Below are positions 2,563-18,610 of a DNA stretch of 26,509 nt, piece by piece (the first letter of the stretch is position 1; each line of letters begins with the position of its first letter). A model generated the notes under the pieces. That model saw only the letters and a program-made list of their open reading frames with translations. It was not told the DNA's origin and did no database searches. The stretch is from a virus. The DNA is taken from IMG/VR virus record IMGVR_UViG_3300037475_000089, positions 1 to 26,509 of that record, one strand, 5' to 3'. The translations under genes and the position numbers were made by a program.

Positions 2563-2587
2563 ATTCAGTGCTGACTCGATCCATAGT
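2559..2587 (+). promoter_or_regulatory. Weak sigma70-like promoter candidate ahead of terS
   Basis: TTGAAT (2559-2564) and CATAGT (2582-2587) are separated by 17 nt, each matching four of six consensus bases. The 15-bp repeat occupies most of the spacer, as an operator might. The match is modest and could be chance. The other three repeat copies have no equivalent pair of hexamers, which weakens a simple sigma70 reading. Confidence 0.25.
2568..2582 (+). repeat. 15-bp block-border repeat R1 (GTGCTGACTCGATCC), + orientation
   Basis: Exact 15-bp sequence found four times in the window. This copy lies between the accessory genes and terS, ending 17 nt before the terS ATG. The 20 nt upstream are AT-rich (15 of 20). 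Unlike the other three copies it is followed by A rather than C. Its position fits a promoter, operator or module-junction role; none is proven. Confidence 0.85.
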
Positions 2588-2599
2588 AAGGCACACACT

Positions 2600-3046
2600 A
2601 TGCTTTCCGGACCGCATCAGAAGTTTGCCGAGGGGATTGTTTCAGGGCTGAATGCCCTGGAGGCATATCAAGCAGCTTACCCTAAAGCGGCCTATGACTC
2701 TGCAAGGACACGAGGGCCAGGTTTGTTTGCAAATGCTGCCATCATGGAGGAAATCTCACGAATGAGAAAAGAGGCCGAAAAGCAATCAACCTCAGCAGTT
2801 CTGACGCTGGCAGAGAAGTTTGATTTTCTCGCCAGTGTGGTGCGGACTCCAGTAGGGGATTTGGATCGAGATTCCCAACTAGCGCAGGAGTGGACGGAGG
2901 AAACCAACGCTTTTGGCGGGAAAACCAAGGTCAAGATGCCCTGTAAACTGAGGGCGTTGGAACTTCACGCCAAACTTGCCGGGGAGTTGAGCGAGAAAAA
3001 TCAGCCTGACACCGGAATCACCATCAACGTGATTATCGGAGCGTGA
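2600..3046 (+). CDS. terS: Terminase small subunit
   Basis: 148 aa. The N-terminal region (HQKFAEGIVSGLNALEAYQAAYP followed by SARTRGPGLFANAAIMEEISRM) is the helix-turn-helix DNA-recognition domain of Terminase_2-type small subunits. The central helices (STSAVLTLAEKFDFLASVVRTPVGDLD) form the usual oligomerisation region. The C-terminal CKLRALELHAKLAGEL is also typical of the family, followed by a short beta-like tail (ITINVIIGA). It binds the packaging start site on phage DNA and hands the DNA to the large subunit. It overlaps the GTG start of terL by 4 nt (GTGA), consistent with coupled synthesis of the two packaging subunits. Confidence 0.85.
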   Translation: MLSGPHQKFAEGIVSGLNALEAYQAAYPKAAYDSARTRGPGLFANAAIMEEISRMRKEAEKQSTSAVLTLAEKFDFLASVVRTPVGDLDRDSQLAQEWTEETNAFGGKTKVKMPCKLRALELHAKLAGELSEKNQPDTGITINVIIGA

Positions 3047-4404
3047 GTAAACCGCAGCAAATCACCCTGACGATTGTCCCAAGGCCGCATTTCCGCGAGT
3101 ATCTGACGCGCTCACAGCGTTTTGCCTGTATTGTGGCGCACCGGAGAGCCGGAAAGACTTACGCCTGCATTCAGGACCTGCTGGCGCGTGCTCTGACCCA
3201 TAAGCGCCCCGGCCCTGCTCTGCGGTACGGCTACATTGCGCCGACAAGGGACCAGGCGAAGGATATTGTTTGGGGATACCTCACGGCATTTTGCGAGAAA
3301 ATACCCCAGGTTGTGTTCAATAAGGCTGATTTGAGCCTCACGCTGCCCAATGGGGCGATGATCCGGCTTTACTCCGGCGACAGCTACGACCGGATGCGCG
3401 GGCTGTACTTTGACGGGGTTGTTATTGATGAACCTGCCGACATTGACCCGGAAGCATGGCCTTTCGTGGTGCGCCCGTGTCTTTCGGATTACGCCGGGTG
3501 GGCTACGTTCATCGGTACTCCGAAGGGACAGGATGCCTTTTACGACATTTGGAAGGATTCTGTTGGCCAGGCTGAATGGTTCTCTCTGGTGCTGCGGGCT
3601 ACGGATTCGGGGATTATTCCCGCCGCTGAATTGGTATCACTCCGGGCCGGAATGCCTGATTATGCCTACAGGCAGGAGTATGAATGCGACTTTACCGCCC
3701 CAATACCGGGCGCGATTTACGCCGCTGTGATGGACAAGGCGAGGGAAGAGAACAGGATTGGAGTCATGCAGCCTGATCCGAATTACCTTGTGCATACCCT
3801 GTGGGATTTGGGGGCGCCAAGGCAAACCGTCTGCTGGTATTTCCAGATTCTAGGCCGCACGGCCCGCTTTGTGGATGTGGACATGGACAGCGATGAAACG
3901 ATTCTCCAACGGGTCGGGAGAATGCGGAACAATGGCTACCTCTACGGATCTCATTTCTTCCCGCATGATGCACTCCAGACCGAGAGAAGCGGTAAAACGC
4001 TGGCTTCGGAGTTTGCTGCTGCGTGGTTGAGTCAGAACGTCGAGACAGTGACAAAGGCTGATGAACACAGGGCAAACATGAAGTTCATCCCGCGGACTCA
4101 TGATATTTGGGTTGGCATCAACCGGGCCATTCAGCTTTTCCCTGTGATGGAATTCAGGGAGCCGCAGTGTTCTGAGGCTCTGGCGCTCCTGGGACGCTAC
4201 AGGACGCGTCCAGACAGAGAGGGGGCCAATGCTACAAGGGAACCAATTCACGACCGTTCCAGCCACGTTGCCGACCCAATACGCTATTTTGCAGAGGCTG
4301 AACTAGCTGGGATGATCCCGTTCAAAGCGCCAACACCTCAGCCTGAATGGACTTACATGAGGGAGAAGCGGAAGGGAATCAAGGCCGTCAGAGTGGGCGG
4401 ATAG
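3043..4404 (+). CDS. terL: Terminase large subunit (packaging ATPase and nuclease)
   Basis: 453 aa, normal size for the family. The GTG start at 3043 overlaps the terS stop. The N-terminal ATPase has Walker A HRRAGKTY (33-40), Walker B VVIDE with the catalytic Glu at 130, and the coupling motif FIGTPKGQDAFYDIW (156-170). The C-terminal RNase-H-like nuclease shows the expected acidic residues: Asp255 in HTLWDLG, Asp309 in FPHDA and Asp411 in HVADPIRY. It forms the motor that pumps DNA into the prohead at the portal and cuts it. Portal normally follows closely in related phages. Here the next gene is the capsid, and portal lies about 15 kb downstream. Confidence 0.97.
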   Translation: MSKPQQITLTIVPRPHFREYLTRSQRFACIVAHRRAGKTYACIQDLLARALTHKRPGPALRYGYIAPTRDQAKDIVWGYLTAFCEKIPQVVFNKADLSLTLPNGAMIRLYSGDSYDRMRGLYFDGVVIDEPADIDPEAWPFVVRPCLSDYAGWATFIGTPKGQDAFYDIWKDSVGQAEWFSLVLRATDSGIIPAAELVSLRAGMPDYAYRQEYECDFTAPIPGAIYAAVMDKAREENRIGVMQPDPNYLVHTLWDLGAPRQTVCWYFQILGRTARFVDVDMDSDETILQRVGRMRNNGYLYGSHFFPHDALQTERSGKTLASEFAAAWLSQNVETVTKADEHRANMKFIPRTHDIWVGINRAIQLFPVMEFREPQCSEALALLGRYRTRPDREGANATREPIHDRSSHVADPIRYFAEAELAGMIPFKAPTPQPEWTYMREKRKGIKAVRVGG

Positions 4405-4410
4405 CCCACG

Positions 4411-4425
4411 GGATCGAGTCAGCAC
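4411..4425 (-). repeat. 15-bp block-border repeat R2, - orientation
   Basis: GGATCGAGTCAGCAC on the + strand, the exact reverse complement of R1, 6 nt after the terL stop. With one more base it matches the 16-bp form GTGCTGACTCGATCCC shared with R3 and R4. Read in motif orientation, the 20 nt upstream are AT-rich (15 of 20). With R1 it forms an inverted pair around terS-terL. Confidence 0.85.
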
Positions 4426-4611
4426 GATTTTTATTGACATTCCATAATCCTAAAGCAAACTGCCCCCGGATCGAGTTGCGGCCCGAAAGGATTACCCGCT
4501 CCTCCTTCGCTACCATTACGCGCCCAGGGTGTTCCTGACTAGCCGGAAGCGAAACTGCACAGACTATGAACTTGGTAGGGTTCTTGTCAGCACTTTCAAA
4601 ACTTCCGCCTT
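4426..4611 (+). other. Gene-free spacer between terminase and capsid genes
   Basis: Together with R2, the 207 nt after terL carry no ORF I would accept. Besides R2 the spacer contains two partial matches to it in the same orientation: GGATCGAGT at 4469-4477 and GTCAGCAC at 4586-4593, as if the motif were present in separated halves. No terminator-like hairpin with a T-run was seen. The capsid gene that follows has no Shine-Dalgarno; the bases before its ATG are pyrimidine-rich. The spacer may hold a capsid promoter or leader, or a scar where the portal block was lost. Confidence 0.45.
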
Positions 4612-5478
4612 ATGGCAACTGACTCCGTACCCGCGCACTTCACGACTGAATACAACAACAACTGGATCGCCCGCACTCAACAGCGCAAGTCCCGGTTGAA
4701 TGAGTTCATCAACATCATCGAATTCCAGGGAGAGCGGAAACGCTTCGACCGGGTTGGTGCTTCACAGAGCCGCCGCCGCACTGAACGCGCTGCTCCTACT
4801 CCGGTTTCCAATGCCTCCAGCGATTCCCGCTGGGCATATCGGGAAATGTTCGAGATCCCGGCCCGCATTCTGGACGAGGACGACGCTCAAAACCTGGGCG
4901 TTCTGACTCTGCCAACCAGCCGATACATTCAGGACGATGCCGCGATGTATAACCGCGACATTGATGACCTTGCCTGTTCGCTGGCTTTGGCTGATGCGAA
5001 GATTGGTGAAGCTGGAACTACCACGTTCGCCCTCCCTGCCGCACAGAAGATTGTTCACGGCGGAACCGGCCTGAATCTGGCTAAACTCCTGAGCGCCAAT
5101 GAAATCCGCCTTGCTGCGGAAATGGATGATACTCCATGGGTTCTGGTTGTTTCCAAGCAACAGATTACCAACCTGCTCAACACTACCGAAATCAAGAGCG
5201 CCGACTACAACACGGTCAAGGCTCTGGCTTCCGGTCAGGTAAACAGCTTCATGGGCTTCCAGTTCATCATCAACAACCGGCTCGGGAAAGTCTCCACTAC
5301 CCGCACCTGCGTTGCCTGGGCCAAGGGGGCTATCGACATGATCCGGGGCAGCATGACAAGCCGAATCGACAAGCGGCCTGATCTGTCCTACGCGACCCAA
5401 ATCTACTCCAAGTACAACCTTGGGGGCGTCCGGGTCCATGACGAGGCGGTTATCTCCATCGAGTGTACTGAAACCTAA
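4612..5478 (+). CDS. Major capsid protein
   Basis: 288 aa. The C-terminal half is the HK97-fold capsid signature seen in many podovirus coat proteins: VVSKQQITNLLNTTEIKSAD (179-198), then YNTVKALASGQVNSFMGFQF (199-218), a hallmark block, then the A-domain strands (TCVAWAKGAIDM) and a YSKYNLGGVRVHDEAVISIE end (about 265-284). The N-terminal arm is highly basic (ERKRFDRVGASQSRRRTE). It forms the icosahedral shell and would assemble on the scaffold, whose gene lies far downstream at 21301 instead of just upstream. It is followed by the putative decoration protein and, after that, a strong terminator, a usual arrangement for abundant head proteins. There is no ribosome-site consensus ahead of the ATG. 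Confidence 0.92.
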   Translation: MATDSVPAHFTTEYNNNWIARTQQRKSRLNEFINIIEFQGERKRFDRVGASQSRRRTERAAPTPVSNASSDSRWAYREMFEIPARILDEDDAQNLGVLTLPTSRYIQDDAAMYNRDIDDLACSLALADAKIGEAGTTTFALPAAQKIVHGGTGLNLAKLLSANEIRLAAEMDDTPWVLVVSKQQITNLLNTTEIKSADYNTVKALASGQVNSFMGFQFIINNRLGKVSTTRTCVAWAKGAIDMIRGSMTSRIDKRPDLSYATQIYSKYNLGGVRVHDEAVISIECTET

Positions 5479-5511
5479 TTCAACCCTTCTTCACTTCTAC
5501 TCTCCAATCAT

Positions 5512-5994
5512 ATGGCTGAATTTAATTCCACGGTTTACACCGCACAAAAGGCGACCCGGGCCAACCCTTCCCGGCTTGCTACTCAAAACAGCGCATCTGG
5601 CACGATCCAGGTCGCCAAGATCCCCTACACGCTGGCTGCAACTGAGGTTGCCAACGATACTATCAACCTGTGCGTTCTGCCTGCCGGGGCCATCCCGCTT
5701 CCTGAACTGTCCAGCGTGGTTTGTTCGGCTGACCCCGGAACTACGCTGACGCTGGATATTGGCAACGCTGACAACCCGGATGGCTGGGCTGATGGCATTG
5801 TGCTTTCTGCCGGTGGTCAGGTGGCTTGCACCAACACTGCAATCCCCGCTTGGGTGGCTGATACCCCTATCGTCACCGATTCCGGGTTTGCCACTGCCGG
5901 TAGCGCGGTGATTTACGCCACGGTCGCCAGCGCCAACACGCTGACCGCCTCCGTCGTGCTCTACTTCAACCTGGCTTACAAGCTGGCGAAATAA
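5512..5994 (+). CDS. Putative head decoration or accessory capsid protein
   Basis: 160 aa, beginning MAEFNSTVYTAQ, rich in Ala, Thr, Val and Asn with alternating beta-strand character (TINLCVLPAGAIPLPELSSVV, TLTLDIGNADNPDGWADG, SAVIYATVASANTLTASVVL). There is no hydrophobic signal or Cys pair. Its place 33 nt after the capsid gene and before a terminator, together with its size and beta-rich composition, is the usual setting of a decoration or head-stabilising protein. That function is an inference from position; I do not recognise a named family. No Shine-Dalgarno is present; the leader is pyrimidine-rich. Confidence 0.6.
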   Translation: MAEFNSTVYTAQKATRANPSRLATQNSASGTIQVAKIPYTLAATEVANDTINLCVLPAGAIPLPELSSVVCSADPGTTLTLDIGNADNPDGWADGIVLSAGGQVACTNTAIPAWVADTPIVTDSGFATAGSAVIYATVASANTLTASVVLYFNLAYKLAK

Positions 5995-6010
5995 TTGGTT
6001 CATGGTGTGG

Positions 6011-6043
6011 GGCCGGGGTGGTGAAAACTGCCCCGGCCTTTTT
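6011..6043 (+). terminator. Rho-independent terminator after the capsid genes
   Basis: A perfect 8-bp GC stem, GGCCGGGG (6011-6018) with CCCCGGCC (6031-6038), encloses a 12-nt loop and is followed at once by TTTTT (6039-6043). It lies 16 nt after the decoration gene and 11 nt before the tail adaptor start. It would thus attenuate read-through from abundant capsid transcripts into tail genes. Confidence 0.85.
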
Positions 6044-6054
6044 CCCGTAAGGAT

Positions 6055-6648
6055 ATGAGCACGACCGTAACCAACATCTGCAACCGGGCTTTAGGCCGTC
6101 TCGGGGATACTCAAATCCTTGATATTAACGACGCTGGCACTGCCGCGAGGGCTTGCCAGCTTCATTTCGAGGGAACACGCGACGAGGTATTGAGGGCGCA
6201 TCGGTGGAACTTTGCCACAACCCGCACGATCCTTGCGCAGAATATCACAGCGCCCCTCTTTGGCTGGGATTACTCCTATACTCTGCCAGTTGATTTCATC
6301 CGCGCTCTTGAGGTGAACGAGACGGAAGACGGGGAAGGGAATCCCTGGGCGTGTGAGGGAGGGAATCTGATGACCGATTCCGAATCCGTGAACCTGGTCT
6401 ATATCCGGCGCGAAACGGAAGTGGTGAAATGGGACACGCTCTTTCAGGAGGCAATGACTCTGAAGCTGGCAATGAAGCTGGCAACGGTTCTGCGCGGTTC
6501 ATCTTCACAGGTGGCTGAACTCGGAGAGGAATACACCAGACTGACGGCGGGCCTGGCCAAACGCGTTGACGCCAACGAAGGGCGCGACCGCATACCCCTT
6601 TGGCCCACCCGTTCACAGTTTGTTGCGGCGCGTTTCAGCGGGGCTTAA
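6055..6648 (+). CDS. Tail tubular protein A-like adaptor (T7 gp11 type)
   Basis: 197 aa. The N-terminus VTNICNRALGRLGDTQILDI is the standard opening of the T7 gp11-like adaptor family. It is followed by ACQLHFEGTRDEVLRAHRWNFATTR and the FGWDYSYTLPVDFIRALEV block, both diagnostic. The protein forms the ring joining the portal to the tail nozzle. The C-terminal helices (EAMTLKLAMKLATVLRG) are as expected. An AAGG lies only a couple of bases from the ATG, too close to be a good Shine-Dalgarno. The nozzle gene follows after 3 nt, the conserved order in this virion type. Confidence 0.92.
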   Translation: MSTTVTNICNRALGRLGDTQILDINDAGTAARACQLHFEGTRDEVLRAHRWNFATTRTILAQNITAPLFGWDYSYTLPVDFIRALEVNETEDGEGNPWACEGGNLMTDSESVNLVYIRRETEVVKWDTLFQEAMTLKLAMKLATVLRGSSSQVAELGEEYTRLTAGLAKRVDANEGRDRIPLWPTRSQFVAARFSGA

Positions 6649-6651
6649 ACC

Positions 6652-9468
6652 ATGGCAATTCATCACTTCCAAACTTCATTCAATGCGGGGGAACTGACGC
6701 CACAGCTTGACGCCCGTGTAGGAGTCGAGAAGTACACAAACGGGTGCAGGCGGCTGAAGAACTTCCTTGTCTCTGTTCACGGACCGGCAACCAAACGGCC
6801 TGGACTGGAGAACATCGGGGCAGCCTATACCGACACCACTCCCGCGAGGCTGATCGGGCTGAACTTCTCCGCGACAACCAGCTTCGTTGTGGAGATTACC
6901 ACGACCAAATTTCGCTTTTGGACGAATGGCGTGCTTGTGGCCTTTACGCTGGATCATCCTTATTCAGATACGGATTACCAGGACGTACAGGCCGCGCAGG
7001 TGAATGATGTAATTTACCTGACGCACCCCAATTACAATCCACGGATTCTGGAGCGGTATGGGAACGCCGACTGGAGACTGAGGGAGATTCATCAACCGGC
7101 TACGGGATGGACTCCGCCCGCTGCCGCTACTCCGCCAACGGGGAATTGTGTGCTGGAGCGATGGATTACCGGCCCGCTACTGGTGACAACGCTGGTTCTG
7201 GCTGATGCGGTATGCGCTCAATACCCGCCCAATCAGGTAATTCCCATGTCCGGGGCACCCATCGGAACGTTGGGCAACTGGTCGGCATCCATTCAGCGGG
7301 TCAGGGGATGGTTTGTGCCACGCACCACAGGTACTTATAAATTCCGGGCCATCAATATTGATGACATGGCAAGGGTGCGGTTCAACTCTACCGCCTACGG
7401 GGGAGAATCCGGAGCCGTTACCATCATCGAGGCTTCTATCAACCAGACCGTAGATAGCCCTGACTACTCACTGGTTGCCGGTTCCGCCTACTGGATCGAG
7501 TTTCTTCACAATGACATGGCGCAGCCCTCAGTTGGGCGATTCAATTACTTCATTGGCGGGGTGGATCAGGGGTATGTCACGGCAACCTCACTGGCGGCTC
7601 AACTCAATACCCCAACCGGCACAACGCTGGACGGATGGCCCGCGCTCTTGGATGAGAACACCGACGCACGCACGATCACGCCAAGCGGAACGAGCGGGAG
7701 CATTACCCTCACTGGTTCCGCTGCCATTTGGGAGGCTGGGCATGTCGGGGCTTGGTGGCAGATTTCACATGCAAGAGAAGGCGCGTACGCCGAAATCATC
7801 CCAGGAACTACAATTTCAGCAGGCACAAGCGCGACCACGCTCCGGGCGATTGGGCGCGTGACTGTTTACACCTACGGGACGTGGACGGCGACGATCTACC
7901 TTGAGGAATTAAACCCTGATGGAACCACATGGAGGGTAATGAGGACATGGAGGAGCGTAAATGATCGCAATGTGGTTGAAACGATCACGCTTGAGGGGGA
8001 ATCAATCCTTCGCCTTCGGACCACAACCGGAACCAGTGTTGCTGCCAGCGGGGCAAATCCAGACGCCCGCTTCATGGTCGAAGCAGGAGACGCCAGAGTT
8101 TACGGTCTTGTCCGCATTACCGGCTTCACTTCCTCAACCTCTGTCACGGCCACGGTTTACAAGGTGCTCCACGCGGCCACTGCAACCCCGCTCTGGACAG
8201 AAGGAGCATGGTCGGCGGTTCAGGGATACCCGCGCACGGTTTGTCTGCACCAGCAGCGGACCCAATGGGGAGGCACACTGAAACGCCCGCAATCCATATG
8301 GGGCAGCGTCACAGGGGACTTTGAGAACTTCCGCCGCTCTACCTTTGATGATGGATCTTACCTTTATCAGATTGCCTCTGAGAACTCGTTCCTGATTCAG
8401 TGGATGCTGAGTCAGGGGGATTTGCTGATTGGCACCAGTCTGGATGAATGGATTGCATCCGCTCCGGAGAATGCGCCAATCACGCCGGTCAACCTGTCAT
8501 TCCGCAGACAATCCGCGATTGGGAGCGAGTACAAGCAAGCCGTCCTGATCCGGGAAACCGTGGTCTTTGTGCAGCGCAACGCCATTGCCCTTTCCCGCAT
8601 GATCTACCGGGAGAATGGACGATATGGAGCGAGTGAAATCACCATTCTCGCCAGCCATCTATTCCGGGGCGTCATTCGCCAAATGGCCTGGCAGGCGCAA
8701 CCTTCCTCTGTGCTTTGGGTGGTTTTGCAGAACGGAAGCCTTGTCGGGCTGACCTATGAGGAGGATCAGAACGTGTTCGCCTGCCATGAACATACCACGG
8801 ACGGGCTATTTAAATCCGTGTCAGTGATTCACGGGCCGCAGGGCGATGAGGTATGGGTTTGCGTGCTCCGGGGCACTGCCTACCGCATCGAACGGTTTGA
8901 GCCGCGCACGCTCTTTGCTGGGGCTGTGGGCGATACTACGGCGCGACGGTGCTATGTGGATGCAGCGGTTTTGAAGGAATCAGCCACGGCTTTCACTTCC
9001 GTTACAGGGCTGGCTCACTTGAATGGCAAAACGGTCAAAGTCTTCGCAGACGGGGCAGAAAGGGCGGATGCGACCGTAAGCGGCGGGGCTATCACTCTTT
9101 CAGAGGAAGCCAACGTGGTTTGCGTGGGGCTGGGTTATACTTCGGAACTCCAGCCCATGAAGCTGGAAGCGCAGATGCAGAATGGGACCGCACAGGGCCG
9201 GAGGTTCAAGGTTTGCGGGGTGGTGCTCCGGCTGCTGGATTCCCTGGGGGGCAAGGTAGCCGCCAACATCGGAGGGCGCGAGGAGGTGATTGAATACCGG
9301 TCGGTTGAAACCCCGATGGATGCTGCACCGCCTATTTTCTCCGGGGATAAGGAACTTTCCCTGTCGTCCACCCATGGGAATTCCGTGGATGTGATTGTGA
9401 CCCATTCGGAACCGCTGCCGTTTACTTTGGCCGGGCTGGTGGTCAAGGTTGATATTTACGAAAATTGA
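6652..9468 (+). CDS. Tail tubular protein B-like nozzle protein with PA14-like insertion
   Basis: 938 aa, longer than T7 gp12 (about 800). The N-terminus (FQTSFNAGELTPQLDARVGV, then KYTNGCRRLKNFLVSVHGPA with KRPGL) is typical of gp12-like nozzle or stabilisation proteins, as is SIWGSVTGDFENF in the second half. Between about residues 165 and 310 sits an extra beta-rich unit with RGWFVPRTTGTYKFRAINID and LVAGSAYWIEFLHND, the pattern of a PA14-type carbohydrate-binding sandwich. The protein forms the hexameric nozzle at the tail tip through which internal proteins and DNA leave. The insertion could bind surface glycan; that is inference. The start ATG at 6652 has no Shine-Dalgarno. Confidence 0.9.
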   Translation: MAIHHFQTSFNAGELTPQLDARVGVEKYTNGCRRLKNFLVSVHGPATKRPGLENIGAAYTDTTPARLIGLNFSATTSFVVEITTTKFRFWTNGVLVAFTLDHPYSDTDYQDVQAAQVNDVIYLTHPNYNPRILERYGNADWRLREIHQPATGWTPPAAATPPTGNCVLERWITGPLLVTTLVLADAVCAQYPPNQVIPMSGAPIGTLGNWSASIQRVRGWFVPRTTGTYKFRAINIDDMARVRFNSTAYGGESGAVTIIEASINQTVDSPDYSLVAGSAYWIEFLHNDMAQPSVGRFNYFIGGVDQGYVTATSLAAQLNTPTGTTLDGWPALLDENTDARTITPSGTSGSITLTGSAAIWEAGHVGAWWQISHAREGAYAEIIPGTTISAGTSATTLRAIGRVTVYTYGTWTATIYLEELNPDGTTWRVMRTWRSVNDRNVVETITLEGESILRLRTTTGTSVAASGANPDARFMVEAGDARVYGLVRITGFTSSTSVTATVYKVLHAATATPLWTEGAWSAVQGYPRTVCLHQQRTQWGGTLKRPQSIWGSVTGDFENFRRSTFDDGSYLYQIASENSFLIQWMLSQGDLLIGTSLDEWIASAPENAPITPVNLSFRRQSAIGSEYKQAVLIRETVVFVQRNAIALSRMIYRENGRYGASEITILASHLFRGVIRQMAWQAQPSSVLWVVLQNGSLVGLTYEEDQNVFACHEHTTDGLFKSVSVIHGPQGDEVWVCVLRGTAYRIERFEPRTLFAGAVGDTTARRCYVDAAVLKESATAFTSVTGLAHLNGKTVKVFADGAERADATVSGGAITLSEEANVVCVGLGYTSELQPMKLEAQMQNGTAQGRRFKVCGVVLRLLDSLGGKVAANIGGREEVIEYRSVETPMDAAPPIFSGDKELSLSSTHGNSVDVIVTHSEPLPFTLAGLVVKVDIYEN

Positions 9469-9477
9469 TGGTAAAAC

Positions 9478-9492
9478 GTGCTGACTCGATCC
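9478..9492 (+). repeat. 15-bp block-border repeat R3, + orientation
   Basis: Exact GTGCTGACTCGATCC (16 bp with the following C), filling the 25-nt gap between the nozzle gene stop and the GNAT-like gene, with one base between the motif and the ATG at 9494. The 20 nt upstream are AT-rich (14 of 20). If it were a promoter, the message for the GNAT-like gene would be almost leaderless. Confidence 0.85.
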
Positions 9493-9493
9493 C

Positions 9494-9889
9494 ATGACCG
9501 TCCAGCCCTACAATAAAGAAGCACACGAGGGGCTTGTGTCGTCCTGGTGGGAACAGCACACCGGACGGCGCTTTCAGCCTGCTCTACTGCCTCCTGTGGG
9601 CATTGTGGGCGAAGACAGGCACGGACCGGCTTGTGCGTGCTGGCTGCACCTTTCCGCAGGCGTAGGCGTGGCATTCATGGAAAACCCCGTGACCCGCCCC
9701 GGAATGGGCATCAAGGCTGCAAAGTCAGCCCTGACTACGGTTTTCACAGCCTTGGAAGTCATCGCTCTTACCCATGATTACGGGGTGATTATGGTTCATC
9801 CCGTCGCATCGGGGCAAAAGTTCATGGAATCCCTGAACTACGTTTTCGAGATCCCGAAATACGTCACTGGCTCAAAAGTTCTCCGATGA
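9494..9889 (+). CDS. GNAT-like acetyltransferase-fold protein of the virion gene block
   Basis: 131 aa. The order of elements fits a compact GNAT fold: LPPVGIVGEDRHGPACACWL strands, a VAFMENPVTRPG turn, a long central helix (AKSALTTVFTALEVIALTH), the strand YGVIMVHPVA, and a terminal QKFMESLNYVFEIPKYVTG like the last helix-strand of GNATs. The classic Arg/Gln-x-x-Gly-x-Gly/Ala acetyl-CoA loop is not clear; only PGMGIKAA is present, so catalytic activity is uncertain. Small GNAT-like genes between nozzle and internal virion genes occur in T7-like phages, where T7 has gp13. It starts 1 nt after repeat R3 and ends just before the gp14-like gene. Confidence 0.6.
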   Translation: MTVQPYNKEAHEGLVSSWWEQHTGRRFQPALLPPVGIVGEDRHGPACACWLHLSAGVGVAFMENPVTRPGMGIKAAKSALTTVFTALEVIALTHDYGVIMVHPVASGQKFMESLNYVFEIPKYVTGSKVLR

Positions 9890-9890
9890 T

Positions 9891-10631
9891 ATGACCGCCG
9901 CAACCTTCGCTATTATTGGAACTGTCGCCTCCGTTGTGGGCGGGGGTATTGCTGCGTATTCCTCCTACCAGGCAGGCAAGACAAACCAGGCTATTTCATC
10001 GTTTAACGCGATGAATCAGGAGAAGAATGCGAAAATGCAACTCATGGCCATGCAAACGCAGGCCAATCTACAGAAGCAGGCGGCAGAAGCGCAGTACGCC
10101 CTGAGAGCACAGGAGGCACAGGCGAGGTTCAATAATGCAACCAGCATAGAGAATCAGGCGCTCGGGCAGGATCGCATAAACCGGGTGAATCTTGGCAAAC
10201 GCCGGGAGGAAATGGAGAGGCAGGCGGCATCAGCCCGTGCATCCATTGCGGCATCCGGGGCTGTGGAATCTTCCGGCACTCCTTTGGATATTCTGGCGGA
10301 GACTGCCGCAACCATTCAACGGGATCAGGAAGAGCAGCACTATGAGGGGGAATTGAACCGGATTTCCATGTTGAGGGAAGCTCAAATGGAACGGCTGGGC
10401 GGTTCTCTGGCATTGGCTGGGGCGACTCTGGACAAGAATTCAGAGGTCGCTGCCGCTGGCCTTAACCGGTCGGCGGGGCGTGCTTCCTATCTATCCAGCA
10501 TGAGAGAGGCAAGCTTGACCCGGTTGAGCGGTAAATCTGCGGCACGGTCCGGAGCAATTCAGGCCGGGGCTACTCTGTTCTCAACCATTAGCGGGGCTGC
10601 TTCCGGATACCATACTTACAAGACTTCCTGA
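9891..10631 (+). CDS. Internal virion protein B-like (T7 gp14 type)
   Basis: 246 aa. There is a glycine-rich hydrophobic N-terminus (FAIIGTVASVVGGGIAAYSS, about residues 6-25), then a long Gln/Ala-rich helix (EKNAKMQLMAMQTQANLQKQ). The middle has the block SARASIAASGAVESSGTPLD, typical of gp14-like virion core proteins, followed by more helix and a second glycine-rich C-terminus. Proteins of this type leave the capsid during infection and form the outer-membrane part of the DNA ejection channel. It begins 1 nt after the previous stop and ends 1 nt before the next ATG, so it is part of a compact internal-virion operon. No Shine-Dalgarno is visible. Confidence 0.8.
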   Translation: MTAATFAIIGTVASVVGGGIAAYSSYQAGKTNQAISSFNAMNQEKNAKMQLMAMQTQANLQKQAAEAQYALRAQEAQARFNNATSIENQALGQDRINRVNLGKRREEMERQAASARASIAASGAVESSGTPLDILAETAATIQRDQEEQHYEGELNRISMLREAQMERLGGSLALAGATLDKNSEVAAAGLNRSAGRASYLSSMREASLTRLSGKSAARSGAIQAGATLFSTISGAASGYHTYKTS

Positions 10632-10632
10632 C

Positions 10633-12255
10633 ATGCCAATCATCCCATTACTCCGCAAACCCGGCCCGATTGGTCCCGCTCCCCGCGCCGTGCTGGATAC
10701 GGAGCGGAGGCCGAATGTCGATAACCGCGCCGTTTCCCAGGCGGTCGGCAATCTGGCGGATGCGTCTAAAATCAAGGACGTTGACCCGAGGATCTACACT
10801 GACCCGATTCAATCCATGGGAGCAGTGGGCGAGGCGGTTTCCCGTGGGGGCAATATCCTGACGGGGCTGGCCATCAAGCAGGCGGAAGCACAGACGGATA
10901 TTCAGGTTGCCGAGGCTGACCAAGCCATGCAGGATGCTTTCAATAAACACGCTGAGTTTCGTATCAAAACGCCAGACTCTACACTCTGGAAGGCGAACAT
11001 GGATGAAACGCTTACCAAGGCGCGGCAATCCATTGAGGGGAACGAGAGACTGCGACCGGCTGCGAGGGATCAAATCCGAATCCGGCTGGATAAGTTCCAA
11101 GGGGATGCCAATGCTGATTTGATCCGGGATAGCGCAAAGCAGGACTTCCGCAGGGCCGGGAGTGTCTATGATGCCAGCATTCAGCGGGCAATGACGGCGC
11201 GGGATTATGAGGGCGCGGTGAAGCTGTCCAAGGAGGCCGAGGCGAAAGGCTACCGCTTCCCGCACGAAACCGCTGGCCTTGAGGATAATGTCAGCCGGTC
11301 CAAGGAAGCCGACCAAAAGGAAGCTGAGAAGCAAGAGCGGGAAATGCTCTATACTTCCAAGCTGACAGAGATTCAGGCTGATCCGGATAACGTGGATTTC
11401 TCTGATGTGAAAGACCCTGTTCTACGCGACCGGCTGGAAGTCCAGAAGCGGCAGCAAAAGGGCATGATGCGGGCTGATGCGGCTGACCTGATCGACAATG
11501 GAATTGCGACCGGGGATATTAAATCGGAGGCGGATATTGATGCGCTGAAGCTGAAAGGGCTTTCCCCTTCGGATGCTGCCAAGTGGAAAGAGGTTCTGAA
11601 GAAGACCACGAACGAGCGCGAGAAAGAGAAGATCCGGGCCAATGCTCCGGCTCTGGCTGCCGGGCTGGATGCTGAGATTCGCCAATACGATCCCGCTGCC
11701 GACCCGGACAAAAAAGAGTATTACCGGCTGATTGAAGCCAAAGCCCTTCTTCCTGTGGGATACCGCGAGGATTTGCACGCGCTACTCAAGCGGAAGAGGG
11801 AAGGAACGGACGTAAAGCCGGACGAGGTTATCAAGGACATGGGGGAAACGGTGATTTCCGAAATGCTGACTTCCGGCAATCTTGGGCCATACAAGCCACC
11901 TATTCCCACAGGAGACGCGGCAACGGATGCAGAAGCCGCAAAGCAATCCGTGGTTGCCCGTCAACAATCCAACTGGAAAGCCGCCAGCATCCGCAGGGCA
12001 TGGGCCAAGGAACTGAAGGCAAACCCCAAGATGACCACGGCAGAGGCTCAATCTACCCTTTCGCGCATCATGGCCCGCCCGGTTGAGTTGCCAGCACTGG
12101 AGCCGCCAAGCCTATTCCCAACCGGCAATGACTCGCCCGCCCGATGGGATAGCATCCTTGGCCCTGCTGCCAATGCTCCCGAGAACGATCTCCCCTCCGG
12201 CAGCAAGCCGCAGAAACCTTTAGTTGATTACGAACGCCCGCCCCTTCCTGAATGA
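10633..12255 (+). CDS. Internal virion protein C-like (T7 gp15 type)
   Basis: 540 aa, almost entirely helical and highly charged, with no signal peptide or membrane segment. The first 60 residues include the NRAVSQAVGNLADASKI segment seen in internal core proteins. Long coiled-coil-like stretches follow (EADQKEAEKQEREMLYTSKL; TTNEREKEKIRANAPALAAG). The C-terminus is Pro-rich (VELPALEPPSLFPTG, YERPPLPE). T7 gp15 has a similar place between gp14 and gp16 and forms the periplasmic tube of the ejection channel. Assignment rests mainly on gene order and helical composition. Its stop overlaps the next start by 4 nt (ATGA at 12252-12255). Confidence 0.7.
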   Translation: MPIIPLLRKPGPIGPAPRAVLDTERRPNVDNRAVSQAVGNLADASKIKDVDPRIYTDPIQSMGAVGEAVSRGGNILTGLAIKQAEAQTDIQVAEADQAMQDAFNKHAEFRIKTPDSTLWKANMDETLTKARQSIEGNERLRPAARDQIRIRLDKFQGDANADLIRDSAKQDFRRAGSVYDASIQRAMTARDYEGAVKLSKEAEAKGYRFPHETAGLEDNVSRSKEADQKEAEKQEREMLYTSKLTEIQADPDNVDFSDVKDPVLRDRLEVQKRQQKGMMRADAADLIDNGIATGDIKSEADIDALKLKGLSPSDAAKWKEVLKKTTNEREKEKIRANAPALAAGLDAEIRQYDPAADPDKKEYYRLIEAKALLPVGYREDLHALLKRKREGTDVKPDEVIKDMGETVISEMLTSGNLGPYKPPIPTGDAATDAEAAKQSVVARQQSNWKAASIRRAWAKELKANPKMTTAEAQSTLSRIMARPVELPALEPPSLFPTGNDSPARWDSILGPAANAPENDLPSGSKPQKPLVDYERPPLPE

Positions 12256-15200
12256 TCCTTGATAAAACACCGCCTGGAATCCTGAAGGATGAAGACGCCG
12301 CATGGATGCAGGCGAATATCACGGCTGTCCCGCCAGAGCGTAAGGCGCAAGCCCTCGCCAAGCTGAACGAATATCAGAACTTCCGCCGTCAGCATCCCAC
12401 GCCGGAAATGAATCAGCGGTATGCGCAGAATGAAGAGGTTGTTCTTGGGTTGTATGAAGCGCCGGAAAAGGCTGACTTCGGGCCGCTCTTTCCGTCTCTG
12501 CCTGATACCGAGAAGAATTCCCTACAGCAGCGGGTCGCAAATGAGTATTTCCTTGGGCATGTCACCGGCAAGGGGCGGGATGCTTATTCGGATACCATGG
12601 CTTACTCTGCGGAGCGGGGCAGGGTATCGGCTGAAATGTTTGGAGGACGGGGCGTGGATTCAGATTCGGGCTTTGCGACTGAGGCCAGGAACTACCTGAC
12701 CAAACAGAGGGATTTGCGGGTGCAGACTCAAGCCTTTGCCGAGGCTGGGCTTGCGGCTGCTTTGAAGATGACACCGGGCGACCCGCTGGCGGACCTTGAG
12801 AAGATCAAGGAAACGGCATCGAAAACCGACACCTTCACGCCACAGGAGGCGGAGCAATTCGTTCAATCGTACCGCATTTCCCGGCAGAATATGGAAGCGG
12901 TCGCCGGTCCATTCCGCCCGCTGGCCAAGACGGTGCGCCAACTGATCGAGAGCAAGGTTGCAAAAACGGGCGTTGATGAGTCAGGCGAGATGAGCACGGC
13001 GGACGAGGATTTCAATTCCGCCCTGGATATGATGCAGAGCGTACCGGCTGACAAGTTGCCGCTGGTGCTGCGGATGATAAAGGCCGGAGAGGGCGAGAGT
13101 GATAAGGGCGTGGCTGAAAAGGCCGGGCAATCGTTCGCCCGTGGCGTGATGGGACAACTGCGGGGAATTGCCAGCAATGCCAGGCGCGAGGGGATTTTAC
13201 GGGCTAAGGGGGTTCTGGAAGCCGACGCTGATTTTAAGGTATTCGGGAATCGGAGCCTTGAGGAGACATACAGCACCATGGCAATGCAGACTGTGGGCAA
13301 TCCGCTGGGGGCAAGGGATTTGCGCAAAGCCACGCCGGAGGAAGTCGCCAAACTCAAGGAAATGGCGGAAAAGGATCTTCAACGCAATATCATGGCCGGA
13401 CGGCTGGTGAACATCGAGGAACAGGCGGTTGATCCTATCGCGGGCAGCAACATGGCATCGAGGACGCTTTACGGCGCGGCCAATAGCGTGGGCGCAATGC
13501 TTCCGGCCTTTGTTCCCTATGCCGGGCTTGTCATCCAGCAGGGCGCTTTTGCCGATCAGGAGTTTAACCGGCAGATTGAGAACGGAGCGGACCCGAAAAC
13601 GGCGCACACCGTAGCCCAAATCACAGGCACGGTTCAGGCGGGGCTTGATCGCGTTCAGGCAATCTTCGCCCTGAAAATGCCGGGCGTGGGCATTGGTGCT
13701 GCGCGGCCTATTGCGGGAAATCTGGCCGCACAAATCACAGCCGGAGTTGCCGGGACACAAGCGGCTGAATACGCCGTAGAGTCAGCACAGGATGCGGTTC
13801 CGATCTTTACGGCATCGCTTGCCGGTCCATTGGGGCTGAATCTGCCGCAACAGAGCCAATTCACCGAGGAACTGAAACGCTGGAAAGTGTGGAATCCGGA
13901 AATGTTCATGACGCTCCTTCCGCTTTCCCTGTTTGGGGGTGGATTCCAAGGAGTCAAGAATACCGCAGAGGCACAGCAACAGCTCTCCGCCATGATGGCT
14001 GACCCTGTGGCACTGCAAGCCGTAGGGATAGCGCCAACGCAGGCGGAGAGTATCGCGGCACTACCAGAGGCAAAGCGCCCTGAAGCCTACAAGGCAGCCT
14101 ATTCTGAGCGAAATCCAGCCACGCCAGCAGCCGCCACGGCACAGCAGGTAGTATCGGAGCGCGTCACGGCTCAAATCCAGCAGGGACAGCAGGAGATTCA
14201 GACCCTACAGGAAAGCGGCATTGCCATCGAGCGCACCGCAGAGGGCTGGAATGTGACGGATACCGAGACGGGCAGCATGGTTGCGCATGACTCCGCTGAG
14301 AGCGCCATGCAAACGGCGCGGCAAGTGATGACTGAGAGGGGACTGGTTAAGGAGGAAACCTTTTTGGATGCCTTGGGAGAATTTGCGGGAGTGATGCAGC
14401 CGGGCCGGACGATGGAGGTTTCCAGCCGCTCCGGTACGCTCTTGAAGGAAATCGAGGATGCCGCTTCCGACAAAAAGGAACTGACGGTAAAAGCTATTTG
14501 GGACCGGGCGGATGACTATCGCGCCAGCATCGGGCAGGATGCGTTGACCCGGGACATGGAGAATCCTGATTCCCGGAACGCACTGGAAGGAATGTATGTC
14601 CTTGGGCGGTCCACTACGGAGGTTCAGAATAACGCGGCCCGCTCTATTTCGTTAATCCTTCAAGGAGGCGGCACGCTGGATCTGGTCGAGGAACAGGCAG
14701 AGAATGACTTGCGCGAGGCGGTCCACAATAAGCGCGTTTCCATGTCAGCCATGCGCGGGATGATTAAGCGCGTGGAGACGGCGACCGGTGACAAGTATCT
14801 CAACACCGATTCAGAAACCGGCGTTATTGAAGCCTGGTCGAGTCTGGTCCGGCTGTATGCGACCGGGACAAAGAACGGCAATAAGATCACGGCTGGGGCA
14901 CGCAAAGAGACGGCGGCAGAAGTCAGGTCAGAGCGTCGGCGGCTGCGTCAGGCGGAAGGGCAGGGCATCGCTCCGGCTGCGTTTGTGAAGATGCGGGAGT
15001 ATTACGATCAACTCCGGGCCATGCTGGGGCAGGTTGCGCGGCTGATGAAGGCGCAGAAAGAGGGCAAAATCACTGATCTGGAAAGCATGATCCGGGAGAG
15101 CGTTGGACTGAAAGAGCAGGACCGGCACGAAGAAGCGGTTGTAAAGGAGATTGCCAAGGAGGTTCCGGGAAGTATCGCTACTACCGATAGTTCGTTCTCC

Positions 15201-18047
15201 ATCACAACCGCCGACCGCCTGGAGCGCCTGTCTGATTCCCTCCGCGATTACGCACGCGACCCGGAAAGCCGGTTTAAAATGTATGACAAGGCCCGCGAGC
15301 GCCTGGCAGGTATGGCGCGTTCTGTCCGCTATAATGACAACGCCTTTGCCGATACGGAAGCAGGAACCGCCCGGCGCGATATGCTCCGGTTTATGCAGGC
15401 GCTGGATTCGATTCTGACTCCCTTCCCGCCTGAAGTGAGGGTGAAGGTCGGGGGATTCATCAAACTCGCCAGCCTGACCAGTAACCGGCAGATGGAGACG
15501 TTTATCAGGAAACGGGTCGTCAAGCTGGATAAGGTTCTGGAGGCTTTCTTACGGAAGGAATACACGGAGGGAATCCAGTCCATCTTTGCCAAGTCCCAGC
15601 CAAAGGCAGAAGCCGGGCAAAAGGACATAGGGAAAATCGGAGTGCTCGGGCACGCCTGGTTTGATATTGCTCGGGCTGCGTCTGAAATGACGGCACAGGA
15701 AGCGGCTGACCGGATCGCGGCTATTGAGAAGGCGCTTGAGCGGGATTTGACTCCGGGTGAAATGACTGACCTTGTGCGGCTTTGGGGTGCTGATGCCGTG
15801 GTTGATGAGGAAACCGCCAAGGATATGCTTCAGGAGGAGATTACTATCCTTGAGGCATTCGGGGGCATGGAATCCATGGATGCCGCTGCGCTCCATAATG
15901 CCTACACCGAAGCGGAAAAGGCTTACATCACAAACCGGCATGAATGGCTGGCAACGCTTACCGCCCGCAAGGAGCGCAGGGCCGCAACCCGTGAAGCCAA
16001 TACCCTGGAGGCTGGCGGCGGCTATAATGCGGCCACTCATAACCGGACCAATAAGGACAGCGCCGGGCCAAACGACTCTGTTGTAGAGCAGGCGAGGATA
16101 GCCGCCAAGATGACAGCGGAGACGGTAGAGGGGTTCATGGACACCCATTTCAACGCAGAGCAGCAGGCGGGGAATATCTTTGGATTTGCCTCAGAATCCC
16201 GCAAAGCGATTCAGAAAGCCATCTACAAGGCGCAGAGCGCAGAGACAGACGGTATTACCGCTAAAAATCAGCGGATGGCTGACAAGCTGCGGGAAATCTT
16301 CAAGGGCGGGCATGTAAAGCGGGCAGCCGCATTAAAGGCGCTACAGCAGCGGGGAGAAACAGGGATCGAGGGGAATGCAGCATTCCTATCCCAAATGCAG
16401 GGCGTTCATCTTACCATGCTGGCGCGGGATGAGGAATCCGCCGCATGGCTGGAATCCCATGGATGGGATACGGGCACCCTGGAGGAGATAGAGAAGTGGT
16501 TGACCCCTGAAGCGAAGGCACTGCGGGACTTTCTTGCAGAAGAGTACGACCAACAGTATGACCGCATCAACGCCGTCTATTCCCGGATGAAGGGAACCAA
16601 CCTGCCGCGCGTCCAGTTCTACGCCCCCCGGTTGGTGGAGCATGGAGGCACGCAGGCTGATATGACCCTAGACGGGCAGAACATCGCCGGAATGAGCACA
16701 GGCTTTACCCGTCGCCGCTTCACGAAACCACAAGGCCCGCCCAAGCTGGCAGACGCCCTTTCCGCTTTCCTGGCAAATGCCCGCGTTGTGGAGCATTACA
16801 TTGCATGGGCGGAAACGATGGCGGAATTCAAGGCGACAGTTCTTTCCCGTGATGTGCGGCTTGCTGCCGAAACTCACAAGGGAATTAAGAAATACGGGAA
16901 GCTTGCCCGTGAATTGAAGATTCTTGAAGAGGGCGGAATCAAACAGGCCATTCTACAGAACGAGGTCGGGAAGCTGTTGGACCGGTGGCTTGATGCCAAC
17001 AGCAAGACGGCGCTTCTTGGAAAGCTGACCCTGCTATTTAAACAGATTCCCGCCATGGTTGGATCTATGGCCAAAATCGGGCCGGTGGAGTTTATGAAGT
17101 CAGCCGCGCGGGTTATGACAGGGCAGGGCGCGATTGACCTGGGGGATATGTGGGATAGCCCGGTTATTCAGCGCAGGCTTCAAGCTGATTCCGAATGGGC
17201 GAGGTACGCAGCACAGGGGGCAAAGGCAAAGTCTGGTGTCATCAGCTACATTATGGAAAGGAATTGGGATGCCATTGGGTACGCCGACGCGGCTTTTACC
17301 ACATTCAGCGCCTCGGTTGCCTATGATGCCGCATACCGTGAAGCCAAGGAGTCCGGAGCCACAGAGGAGGAATCCAAAGAGCAGGCCATGGAAAGAGCGG
17401 GAATCGTGGTGGATCAGACCGCCCAGCCCATGAATCAATCCGCAAAGTCCCTGATGGAGCTGGAAGCGGGGATTCTGGCGCGTATCCTGTTCGCCTTTCA
17501 AGGGCCAAGCCGGCCGCTGTGGAGCGCCACTTATGAGGCGGTAAAGGGAGGGAACGTGAAAAACATCGCGGGCACCTATGCCGCCGTTGGTATCCTGACC
17601 CCCGTTCTGGTGCAGACTATCGGCAATCTCATCAAAGCCGCCCTGACGGATGATGAATTGGAGGACGTTTTCACATGGAAGGGCTACAAGGCGGCAATGC
17701 TGGCGGCTCCTGCCCAGGGTATGATTTTCTTCGGGACACTGGCAGAGCAGTTGTCCGGAGAGTTTGGAGGAGCGCCGCGCGTGGCAACCCTGCCCGTTGG
17801 GGATGCTCTTGCCAAGCTGATGAAGAATTACCGGAAGGCGAAAGACCCGGAAAAGGATCTGGAGGAAAAAGACATTCTCTCAATGATTCAAGCTGCGGGA
17901 ATGGTACTCGGGGGCCGGGCGGCTGATGTGAATCCGTTCATCAATACCTACAAGCAAGGGCAGCAGTTTATAGATAACCTGGAAACTACCCAAAAAGAAG
18001 AGGCGACACTCAAAAAGCAGAGGAAGAAGCGGGACGAAAAGAAGTAG
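12252..18047 (+). CDS. Giant internal virion protein (T7 gp16 position, large polyvalent type), 1931 aa
   Basis: At 1931 aa this is well above T7 gp16 (about 1320). A hydrophobic region at about 397-565 includes ASRTLYGAANSVGAMLPAFV, the segment DQEFNRQIENGADPKTAHTV common to large polyvalent phage proteins, and FMTLLPLSLFGGGF. A long helical middle (about 700-1450) contains LRKEYTEGIQSIFAK and a FGGMESMDAAALHNAYTEAE-like block. The C-terminal part (about 1580-1850) has membrane-active segments (LLGKLTLLFKQIPAMVGSMA; GILARILFAFQGPSRPLW; AAVGILTPVLVQTIGNLIKA) and ends in a Lys/Arg tail. It is probably ejected with the DNA to form the inner-membrane channel. I see no lytic transglycosylase motif like that at the N-terminus of T7 gp16. 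Confidence 0.8.
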   Translation: MILDKTPPGILKDEDAAWMQANITAVPPERKAQALAKLNEYQNFRRQHPTPEMNQRYAQNEEVVLGLYEAPEKADFGPLFPSLPDTEKNSLQQRVANEYFLGHVTGKGRDAYSDTMAYSAERGRVSAEMFGGRGVDSDSGFATEARNYLTKQRDLRVQTQAFAEAGLAAALKMTPGDPLADLEKIKETASKTDTFTPQEAEQFVQSYRISRQNMEAVAGPFRPLAKTVRQLIESKVAKTGVDESGEMSTADEDFNSALDMMQSVPADKLPLVLRMIKAGEGESDKGVAEKAGQSFARGVMGQLRGIASNARREGILRAKGVLEADADFKVFGNRSLEETYSTMAMQTVGNPLGARDLRKATPEEVAKLKEMAEKDLQRNIMAGRLVNIEEQAVDPIAGSNMASRTLYGAANSVGAMLPAFVPYAGLVIQQGAFADQEFNRQIENGADPKTAHTVAQITGTVQAGLDRVQAIFALKMPGVGIGAARPIAGNLAAQITAGVAGTQAAEYAVESAQDAVPIFTASLAGPLGLNLPQQSQFTEELKRWKVWNPEMFMTLLPLSLFGGGFQGVKNTAEAQQQLSAMMADPVALQAVGIAPTQAESIAALPEAKRPEAYKAAYSERNPATPAAATAQQVVSERVTAQIQQGQQEIQTLQESGIAIERTAEGWNVTDTETGSMVAHDSAESAMQTARQVMTERGLVKEETFLDALGEFAGVMQPGRTMEVSSRSGTLLKEIEDAASDKKELTVKAIWDRADDYRASIGQDALTRDMENPDSRNALEGMYVLGRSTTEVQNNAARSISLILQGGGTLDLVEEQAENDLREAVHNKRVSMSAMRGMIKRVETATGDKYLNTDSETGVIEAWSSLVRLYATGTKNGNKITAGARKETAAEVRSERRRLRQAEGQGIAPAAFVKMREYYDQLRAMLGQVARLMKAQKEGKITDLESMIRESVGLKEQDRHEEAVVKEIAKEVPGSIATTDSSFSITTADRLERLSDSLRDYARDPESRFKMYDKARERLAGMARSVRYNDNAFADTEAGTARRDMLRFMQALDSILTPFPPEVRVKVGGFIKLASLTSNRQMETFIRKRVVKLDKVLEAFLRKEYTEGIQSIFAKSQPKAEAGQKDIGKIGVLGHAWFDIARAASEMTAQEAADRIAAIEKALERDLTPGEMTDLVRLWGADAVVDEETAKDMLQEEITILEAFGGMESMDAAALHNAYTEAEKAYITNRHEWLATLTARKERRAATREANTLEAGGGYNAATHNRTNKDSAGPNDSVVEQARIAAKMTAETVEGFMDTHFNAEQQAGNIFGFASESRKAIQKAIYKAQSAETDGITAKNQRMADKLREIFKGGHVKRAAALKALQQRGETGIEGNAAFLSQMQGVHLTMLARDEESAAWLESHGWDTGTLEEIEKWLTPEAKALRDFLAEEYDQQYDRINAVYSRMKGTNLPRVQFYAPRLVEHGGTQADMTLDGQNIAGMSTGFTRRRFTKPQGPPKLADALSAFLANARVVEHYIAWAETMAEFKATVLSRDVRLAAETHKGIKKYGKLARELKILEEGGIKQAILQNEVGKLLDRWLDANSKTALLGKLTLLFKQIPAMVGSMAKIGPVEFMKSAARVMTGQGAIDLGDMWDSPVIQRRLQADSEWARYAAQGAKAKSGVISYIMERNWDAIGYADAAFTTFSASVAYDAAYREAKESGATEEESKEQAMERAGIVVDQTAQPMNQSAKSLMELEAGILARILFAFQGPSRPLWSATYEAVKGGNVKNIAGTYAAVGILTPVLVQTIGNLIKAALTDDELEDVFTWKGYKAAMLAAPAQGMIFFGTLAEQLSGEFGGAPRVATLPVGDALAKLMKNYRKAKDPEKDLEEKDILSMIQAAGMVLGGRAADVNPFINTYKQGQQFIDNLETTQKEEATLKKQRKKRDEKK

Positions 18048-18258
18048 GTTCCGGTTCCCTGTGCCAGTCCCCATTCCAGAAATAAGGGTACAAGGCGGGC
18101 TTATAAATTTTCCTCAACAAAAGCGCATGATGCAGACCCCTGACAATATCGCCCTCAGTAGCCCACGGGTGCCGGAACCTGAAAACGATCAGGGCAAATA
18201 CAAGGTACACCACGGCGCATTTTGCGACTGATTTCCAGTTCATTCGGTCAATTACCAT
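18010..18258 (-). CDS. Probable minus-strand small membrane protein (77-82 aa)
   Basis: The only non-shadow minus-strand candidate. It fills the 212-nt stretch (18048-18259) with no + strand gene and overlaps the end of the giant virion gene by 38 nt. Starts are possible at 18258 (MVIDRM) or 18243 (MNWKSV); the first lies one base from the opposing + start at 18260. The product has one clear transmembrane helix (CAVVYLVFALIVF, residues 9-21 from MNWK), then a basic RFRHPW turn and a cytosolic-looking amphipathic part (EGDIVRGLHHALLLRK) and a Pro/Ser tail. Reverse orientation inside a late operon is typical of an independently expressed moron-like gene; this is inference. Repeat R4 reads toward it from about 310 nt upstream. 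Confidence 0.5.
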   Translation of the reverse strand: MVIDRMNWKSVAKCAVVYLVFALIVFRFRHPWATEGDIVRGLHHALLLRKIYKPALYPYFWNGDWHREPEPTSFRPASSSAF

Positions 18259-18259
18259 A

Positions 18260-18610
18260 ATGACCCCCGTAGAGAAAGCCAAATCCATCCGCCCCGAAAC
18301 CTTCCGGGATGAACTGGAGGCGCATCTTCTTGGCGGATTTGTGCTCTCCACGCCAACCGCCTTTGTGATGGGCCGCCCTATCGCCCGTGTCGCTCCGCAC
18401 GCGCTACAGGCTGACCCGTGGTTTCAATTCCCGTCAGAGTCCTGTGATTGCTGGCTTGTGTGGCTGGCATCGGGGGATCTGGCGTCAATCTGGCGGCTGG
18501 TTCCCTATCCGCTGCCGTGGCTGGCGTGGGCTAGGAGGGATGGAGCATTGAAATTTAAAAATTTCTCCGGGATCGAGTCAGCACTTGCGGAAATTAAGAA
18601 ACGCGGATAA
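18260..18610 (+). CDS. Conserved-looking small phage protein, 116 aa, end of the internal-virion block
   Basis: Starts MTPVEKAKSIRPETFRDELE, continues with LLGGFVLSTPTAFVMGRPIA and WLVWLASGDLASIWRLVPYP with LPWLAWARR. This pattern (a GFV-STP-FVMGRP core and a later LPW-ARR motif) resembles uncharacterised small proteins found next to virion genes in other podophages. It is soluble, with two Cys in ESCDCWLVW. I know no function. It is separated from the giant virion gene by the stretch holding the minus-strand ORF. Repeat R4 lies inside its last codons, encoding GIESA, so that 15-bp sequence is conserved here despite being coding. No Shine-Dalgarno. Confidence 0.7.
   Translation: MTPVEKAKSIRPETFRDELEAHLLGGFVLSTPTAFVMGRPIARVAPHALQADPWFQFPSESCDCWLVWLASGDLASIWRLVPYPLPWLAWARRDGALKFKNFSGIESALAEIKKRG
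18570..18584 (-). repeat. 15-bp block-border repeat R4, - orientation, inside a coding region
   Basis: GGATCGAGTCAGCAC on the + strand, exact reverse complement of R1/R3 and 16 bp with the preceding G. It is located 26 nt before the end of the 116-aa gene. Next to it is an AT-rich perfect inverted repeat, GAAATTT-AA-AAATTTC (18550-18565). With R3 it forms an inverted pair around the whole GNAT and internal-virion block. The flank upstream in motif orientation is less AT-rich than at the other copies (12 of 20). Confidence 0.85.

Follow-up and report, generated by a model that had tools for sequence, protein, structure and literature searches.

Stoperators of the Cluster A mycobacteriophages (L5, Bxb1, TipsytheTRex) are short, asymmetric sequences present in many dispersed copies in a temperate genome, located mostly in short intergenic gaps and spelled differently between related phages (PMC6550527, PMC9283540). 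Their orientation with transcription is defining (PMC6550527, PMC9283540), and their function is lost when they are reversed (PMC9283540). The Start-Associated Sequences (SAS) of Cluster K mycobacteriophages are asymmetric 13-bp sequences with 11–19 copies, typically 3–7 bp before start codons, and they share one orientation, apart from four genomes in which one copy is reversed (PMC3203893). Their function was still called unclear in 2024 (PMC11373665). In Cluster O mycobacteriophages, 17-bp repeats occur in many dispersed copies that follow no orientation rule (PMC4351075).

The present analysis concerns a word of 15 bp, GTGCTGACTCGATCC, that is repeated in a window of 26,509 nucleotides, which is the whole stretch of viral DNA analyzed (positions 1 to 26,509 of the IMG/VR record IMGVR_UViG_3300037475_000089). 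The results suggest that a regulatory signal of a type described in mycobacteriophages, dispersed, asymmetric, and with a spelling proper to each lineage, also organizes a widespread clade of uncultured podoviruses, in which it would mark late structural units.

The Repeated Word in the Window

Four exact copies were found where the initial annotation had placed them, with the 15-mers beginning at positions 2568 (+), 4411 (−), 9478 (+), and 18570 (−), and three of the four run to 16 nt with C as the last base. A fifth, degenerate copy, GTGCTGACAAGAACCC, had been overlooked. The view that such a word should be nearly absent by chance was borne out, as the window, when up to three mismatches are allowed, holds five matches compared to 0.20 expected, and none of 100 dinucleotide shuffles reached five.

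The first site (2568–2582, +) is separated by 6 nt from the preceding ORF and by 17 nt from the ATG of the following terminase small subunit gene, terS (2600–3046, +; PF03592, E 8e-6; phrog_51, E 5e-15). The second (4410–4425, −) is an exact 16-mer directly 3′ of the stop codon (about 6 nt) of the terminase large subunit gene, terL (3043–4404, +; PF03237, E 1e-8; phrog_2, E 1e-33), and the third, degenerate one (4578–4593, −) lies 18 nt 5′ of the ATG of the major capsid protein gene (4612–5478, +; PF19821, E 6e-53). The fourth (9478–9493, +), again an exact 16-mer, is located 10 nt after the stop of a gene for a tail tubular protein B-like product (6652–9468, +; phrog_376, E 7e-165) and 1 nt before the ATG of a 131-aa ORF (9494–9889, +). 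This ORF, called GNAT in the initial annotation, yielded no match of its own in family searches and is by BLAST a homologue of the gene in the same slot in relatives. The fifth (18569–18584, −) is an exact 16-mer within the final codons of a 116-aa ORF, p18260 (18260–18610, +), whose usual place in many relatives is directly 3′ of terL. The previously given distances to terS, GNAT, and terL were thus right, as was the placement of the last copy within the 3′-terminal part of the 116-aa ORF. By the gene list used here, about 97% of the window is coding, yet four of the five sites are fully intergenic (binomial P about 1e-6, computed post hoc, only after the sites were known). Residues 217–293 of the tail-tube B-like protein match the GLEYA domain (PF10528, E 7e-9), which is a sugar-binding domain.

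Conservation and Spelling in Relatives

A profile search with TerL gave 80 loci, and de novo repeat searches followed; gene calls in the relatives were simple open-frame calls checked by homology. Words at gene-block borders were found in lineage A (GTTTTGACTGATACC; genomes G025–G030, G035, and G003, with 7–12 matches per near-complete genome), lineage B (GTCTTGACTGACACC), and lineage C (GTTTTGACTAATCCC). All three are 15 nt long and fit the family consensus GTNYTGACTNRNNCC. A further word, GTGCTGACTGGAACC, was added by a portal-protein search that led to G039, which has a minus-oriented copy at or just 3′ of the end of p18260. The more distant relatives thus carry spellings of their own at gene borders that match those of the window. 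In lineages A, B, and C and in G039, the copies within one genome are identical or nearly so, while each lineage has a different spelling at the same places. We infer from this combination that the word is read in trans, and this pattern, drawn from sequence comparison, is the main argument for the word as a recognition site.

L027 (6.1 kb), the relative closest to the window in its terminase (TerL 79–80% identical), carries ATGCTGACTCGAACC before terS (+) and GTGCTGACTCGAACC both behind terL (−) and upstream of the capsid gene (−), which are the same places and orientations as those of the window counterparts. Position 13 is A in all three of these copies (...CGAACC) and T in the four exact copies of the window. 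The copy at the capsid gene of this relative is intact and lies 13 nt 5′ of the gene, while the orthologous copy in the window is degenerate. On a portal tree, in which the window forms a long branch of unsure exact place, the motif types were clustered, with five label changes compared to a minimum of four, and no shuffle was as low. The AT-rich 20 nt upstream of the copies, pointed out in the initial annotation, are a feature of the window (15, 15, 14, and 12 of 20, and 13 for the fifth copy; window mean 8.8 of 20) but not of the family, as the 30 nt upstream of the lineage-A sites are 51% AT.

In IMG/VR, the lineage-A word plus one base was found in at least 120 stretches, with multiple copies on many contigs. 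A scan of IMG/VR for the exact 15-mer gave 22 contigs with one copy each, about the number expected by chance, and was uninformative. A nucleotide search of GenBank phages gave no match, searches of that phage collection turned up no close relative in culture, and a host search by genome scan returned distant terminases only, the best of them in an Akkermansia MAG.

Other lineages have repeated words of their own at similar slots, all in the sense orientation: GAGTTCCTAGCAGGGAAAT in G002 (at 2482, 6029, and 21618, oriented as L028) and a TTTCCGTATCGG-like word in G020 (at 1943, 5583, 19480, and 24717). Homology of these repeats with the 15-bp word could not be shown despite the similar slots.

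Slots and Orientation

The same slots recur in seven to eight lineage-A genomes. Recurring plus-oriented slots are the interval between IVP3 and the lysis genes, the position after a DnaC-like gene, and the position before terS. Plus copies near starts lie 2 nt upstream of the portal ATG, 4 nt upstream of the scaffold ATG, and 9–10 nt upstream of terS, with others farther away; the capsid gene commonly has two plus copies upstream, and p18260 holds one minus copy inside the gene. With up to two mismatches, G025–G028 and G030 have 11–12 matches each, exactly one of them antisense, and G029 has seven, two of them antisense. In lineage C (G007), the terS site is plus and the p18260 site minus as in lineage A, while the scaffold, capsid, and fibre sites are minus; a copy with three mismatches at 20078 lies at the border of the tail-tube B and internal-virion genes, comparable to the fourth site of the window. 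Sense copies account for two of five in the window, two of seven in G007, and about 10 of 11 in lineage A.

The site before terS is plus in the window, in L027, and in lineages A, B, and C, and p18260 holds a minus-oriented copy in lineage-specific spelling in lineages A, B, and C, as in the window. Sites before the capsid gene are minus in the window and L027. Across the sequences compared, orientation is thus fixed at two slots (terS plus, p18260 minus) and free at others, such as the scaffold and capsid slots. Within p18260 the codon place differs, being FSGIESAL at the C-terminus in the window and YSGISQNN further upstream in lineage A, which argues that the minus copy was kept or regained there. 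Sites 1–4 nt from an ATG occur in the plus orientation (GNAT in the window; portal and scaffold in lineage A) and in the minus orientation (fibre in lineage C). The description of each pair of copies as enclosing a module holds literally for the four exact copies of the window and fails as a rule, since L027 has the order +, −, − and the copies of lineage A are almost all plus. With many spellings, and with two slots of fixed orientation set against others that are flipped, the clade offers a natural experiment on whether orientation is needed.

Several further features were observed around these slots. A copy with one mismatch, GTTTTGGCTGATACC, lies inside conserved coding sequence of IVP1 (L239, 811–825; AVLADTANLYEM) and at the corresponding position in further lineage-A genomes, and protein constraint may explain it. 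A tRNA-Met (CAT) is located between the scaffold and capsid genes in lineage A (L240, 5731–5801; L237, 5–76; L083, 5967–6037), ending from a few to about 30 nt 5′ of a motif copy. The noncoding gap before the capsid gene (window 4425–4575; L027, 2718–2860; L240, 5815–5945) contains conserved blocks, TAAAGCAAACTG and TAGCCGGAAGCGAA in the window and L027 and GCAGACAMCTCC...GAGCCTG in lineages A–C, and similar-looking stretches are found in relatives without the motif. Pairwise identity of this element is nearer 60–65% (two aligned rows), the gap had no match in Rfam, and a common stem was weak; it may represent a capsid-gene leader RNA not described before. In G037, the gap between terL and the capsid gene (L275, 4215–4460) has four copies of AATCGGGTGAA, about 70–90 nt apart, where the window has motif copies.

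Possible Functions of the Word

The location of copies at block borders had raised the possibility of a recombination or module-exchange junction. In most relatives the gene order is terS–terL–p18260–portal–scaffold–MCP. In the clade of the window, the p18260–portal–scaffold block (18260–22143) is displaced from 4404–4612, the interval between terL and the capsid gene, to a position behind IVP3 and the internal virion genes; the moved portal-like gene (19021–20724, +) was assigned from its size and the gene order shared with relatives, without a family match. The displaced order (terL–MCP...IVP3–p18260–portal) is common to the window and G037, and also to G039 and L027 over the parts covered. 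However, the word is missing from G037 despite the same rearrangement, and it is present in lineage A, whose genes stand in the usual order, so that the junction reading fails. A linker would have shared sequence at a shared junction, and G037 and the window share the junctions only. A boundary sequence would moreover be expected to recur at a given junction in different phages and not at several junctions of a single phage, and such an origin for the word is therefore highly improbable. A site for DNA replication, packaging, or genome structuring, bound by a phage or host protein, would fit dispersed asymmetric sites that are read in trans; the tight link of the copies with gene starts and unit borders would not be expected of it, and we consider it very unlikely. 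Arm sites of a tyrosine integrase were set aside on the ground that the copies are genome-wide.

A phage-specific promoter, at which a phage-modified or phage-encoded polymerase would read the word and start transcription just downstream, draws on the about ten sense copies at unit starts in lineage A, which resemble the T7 late promoters, and on a −35-like hexamer found 5′ of 26% of the lineage-A sites compared to 11% in shuffles. The orientation at the scaffold and capsid genes, however, is reversed in lineage C or the window relative to lineage A, which would imply antisense promoters and argues against a downstream promoter. The T7-type polymerase family PF00940 was absent in G025, G028, G007, and G002 in a run in which the T7 control matched at 1e-110, and in 11 records (seven of them beyond these four) in an earlier run without a matching control. 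A promoter of this kind is therefore unlikely, if still worth weighing. A signal at the RNA level, in which the antisense copy in the p18260 transcript pairs with plus copies in or near translation starts, so that this RNA, whole or as a fragment, regulates how the other units are translated or how stable they are, can likewise be given only a small probability. In the complete lineage-A genomes, about ten copies are sense and a single one, in p18260 and exact over 14 nt, is antisense; several of the sense copies span the region 2–10 nt 5′ of start codons, the complement between the p18260 copy and the sense copies is 14–16 nt long, and the SAS of Cluster K show a similar pattern with one antisense copy (PMC3203893). 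Lineage C and the window, on the other hand, have several antisense copies at gene starts, which leaves no single guide strand for the whole family. Folding of RNA around the sites was mostly unremarkable, and the only Rfam match was the tRNA. An argument for leaderless mRNAs from the absence of a Shine–Dalgarno sequence was dropped, because many genes of these phages that have no word also have none. A related and rather doubtful proposal is a phage-wide antisense regulon, in which the conserved copy in p18260 would be the source of an RNA that base-pairs near the starts of most late units; if it were true, the one-antisense pattern of the Cluster K SAS would be the same logic, independently evolved.

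We favor, with somewhat better than even confidence, the reading of the copies as dispersed asymmetric operators of a phage regulator, similar to stoperators and SAS while fitting the full definition of neither. The initial annotation had suggested a phage-specific promoter or operator; the operator half is upheld by orthologous places, concerted spelling within genomes, and location at the starts and ends of blocks, and the promoter half is weakened by the orientation flips and by the finding of no single-subunit RNA polymerase in relatives. The GTNYTGACTNRNNCC-type word would be a putative site for a sequence-specific regulator, probably a DNA-binding protein encoded by the phage. Its copies would mark borders of transcription units, before terS and near the portal, scaffold, capsid, internal-virion, lysis, or fibre genes, with one antisense copy in the small gene p18260. 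Where promoters overlap some of the sites, the bound protein might block RNA polymerase, and at others it might obstruct transcription entering gene blocks. The late genes of a temperate phage would thereby be kept silent or separated, as with operators and stoperators. An asymmetric word, dispersed in a temperate phage at unit starts and ends and with −35-like hexamers upstream of some copies, fits operator-like sites. The mostly sense copies of lineage A also suit a promoter or a start-associated function, and the mixed orientation counts against the favored reading, as reversed stoperators lose function (PMC9283540).

The reader is presumed to be a protein and to act as a repressor, and the phage of the window is presumed to be temperate. 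Integrase PF00589 was found in every motif-bearing record longer than 37 kb that was searched (G007 and G025–G030), with positive controls matching, which indicates that the clade is at least partly temperate; none was seen in the 26.5-kb window fragment. All seven lineage-A genomes checked have two ribbon-helix-helix-like ORFs and an HTH_17 protein (PF12728, E 1e-12), and these small DNA-binding-like genes lie mostly behind the integrase or near early genes. Identity of the HTH_17 proteins falls to 38–45% even where genomes share the motif, and two different versions of the ribbon-helix-helix pair exist in lineage A, so that neither tracks the motif cleanly, a point against operators of this kind. 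The HTH_17 protein and a 60-aa basic protein behind the integrase are candidates only. The ribbon-helix-helix gene of G028 was rejected as the reader because its close homologues are missing from some lineage-A genomes. A small ORF in the window (1378–1581) contains an AT-hook-like GRPKGSGK and a ribbon-helix-helix-like stretch, with no Pfam match and no homologue among the relative loci compared.

Comparison with Known Systems

Compared to T7-type promoters, the word is similarly asymmetric and repeated at the starts of gene blocks, but its orientation is not uniform and no single-subunit RNA polymerase was found in the relatives. The repeats of Cluster O resemble it in their many dispersed copies without an orientation rule and differ in being palindromic and in numbering over 30 copies. 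Like the stoperators, the word is short, asymmetric, and dispersed, with a cognate spelling for each phage group. Unlike them, it is mixed in orientation in the window and in lineage C, is spelled differently, has about half as many copies, and has a reader represented by candidates only.

The layout of lineage A is strikingly similar to that of the SAS, including the single opposite copy. The SAS, however, hold the Shine–Dalgarno core AGGAG, which is lacking in all spellings of the word, and they are located in the non-structural half of the genome, whereas the word is mostly at structural-gene blocks. It is also often antisense in the window and in lineage C, the window having two sense sites (1 and 17 nt from an ATG) and three antisense ones. 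Since the word does not follow the orientation rule of the stoperators, lacks the SAS core, and is found mainly at structural genes, it is filed as a member of neither group. The one-antisense pattern that it shares with the SAS of Cluster K would nevertheless allow the function of the SAS to be examined in another phage system.
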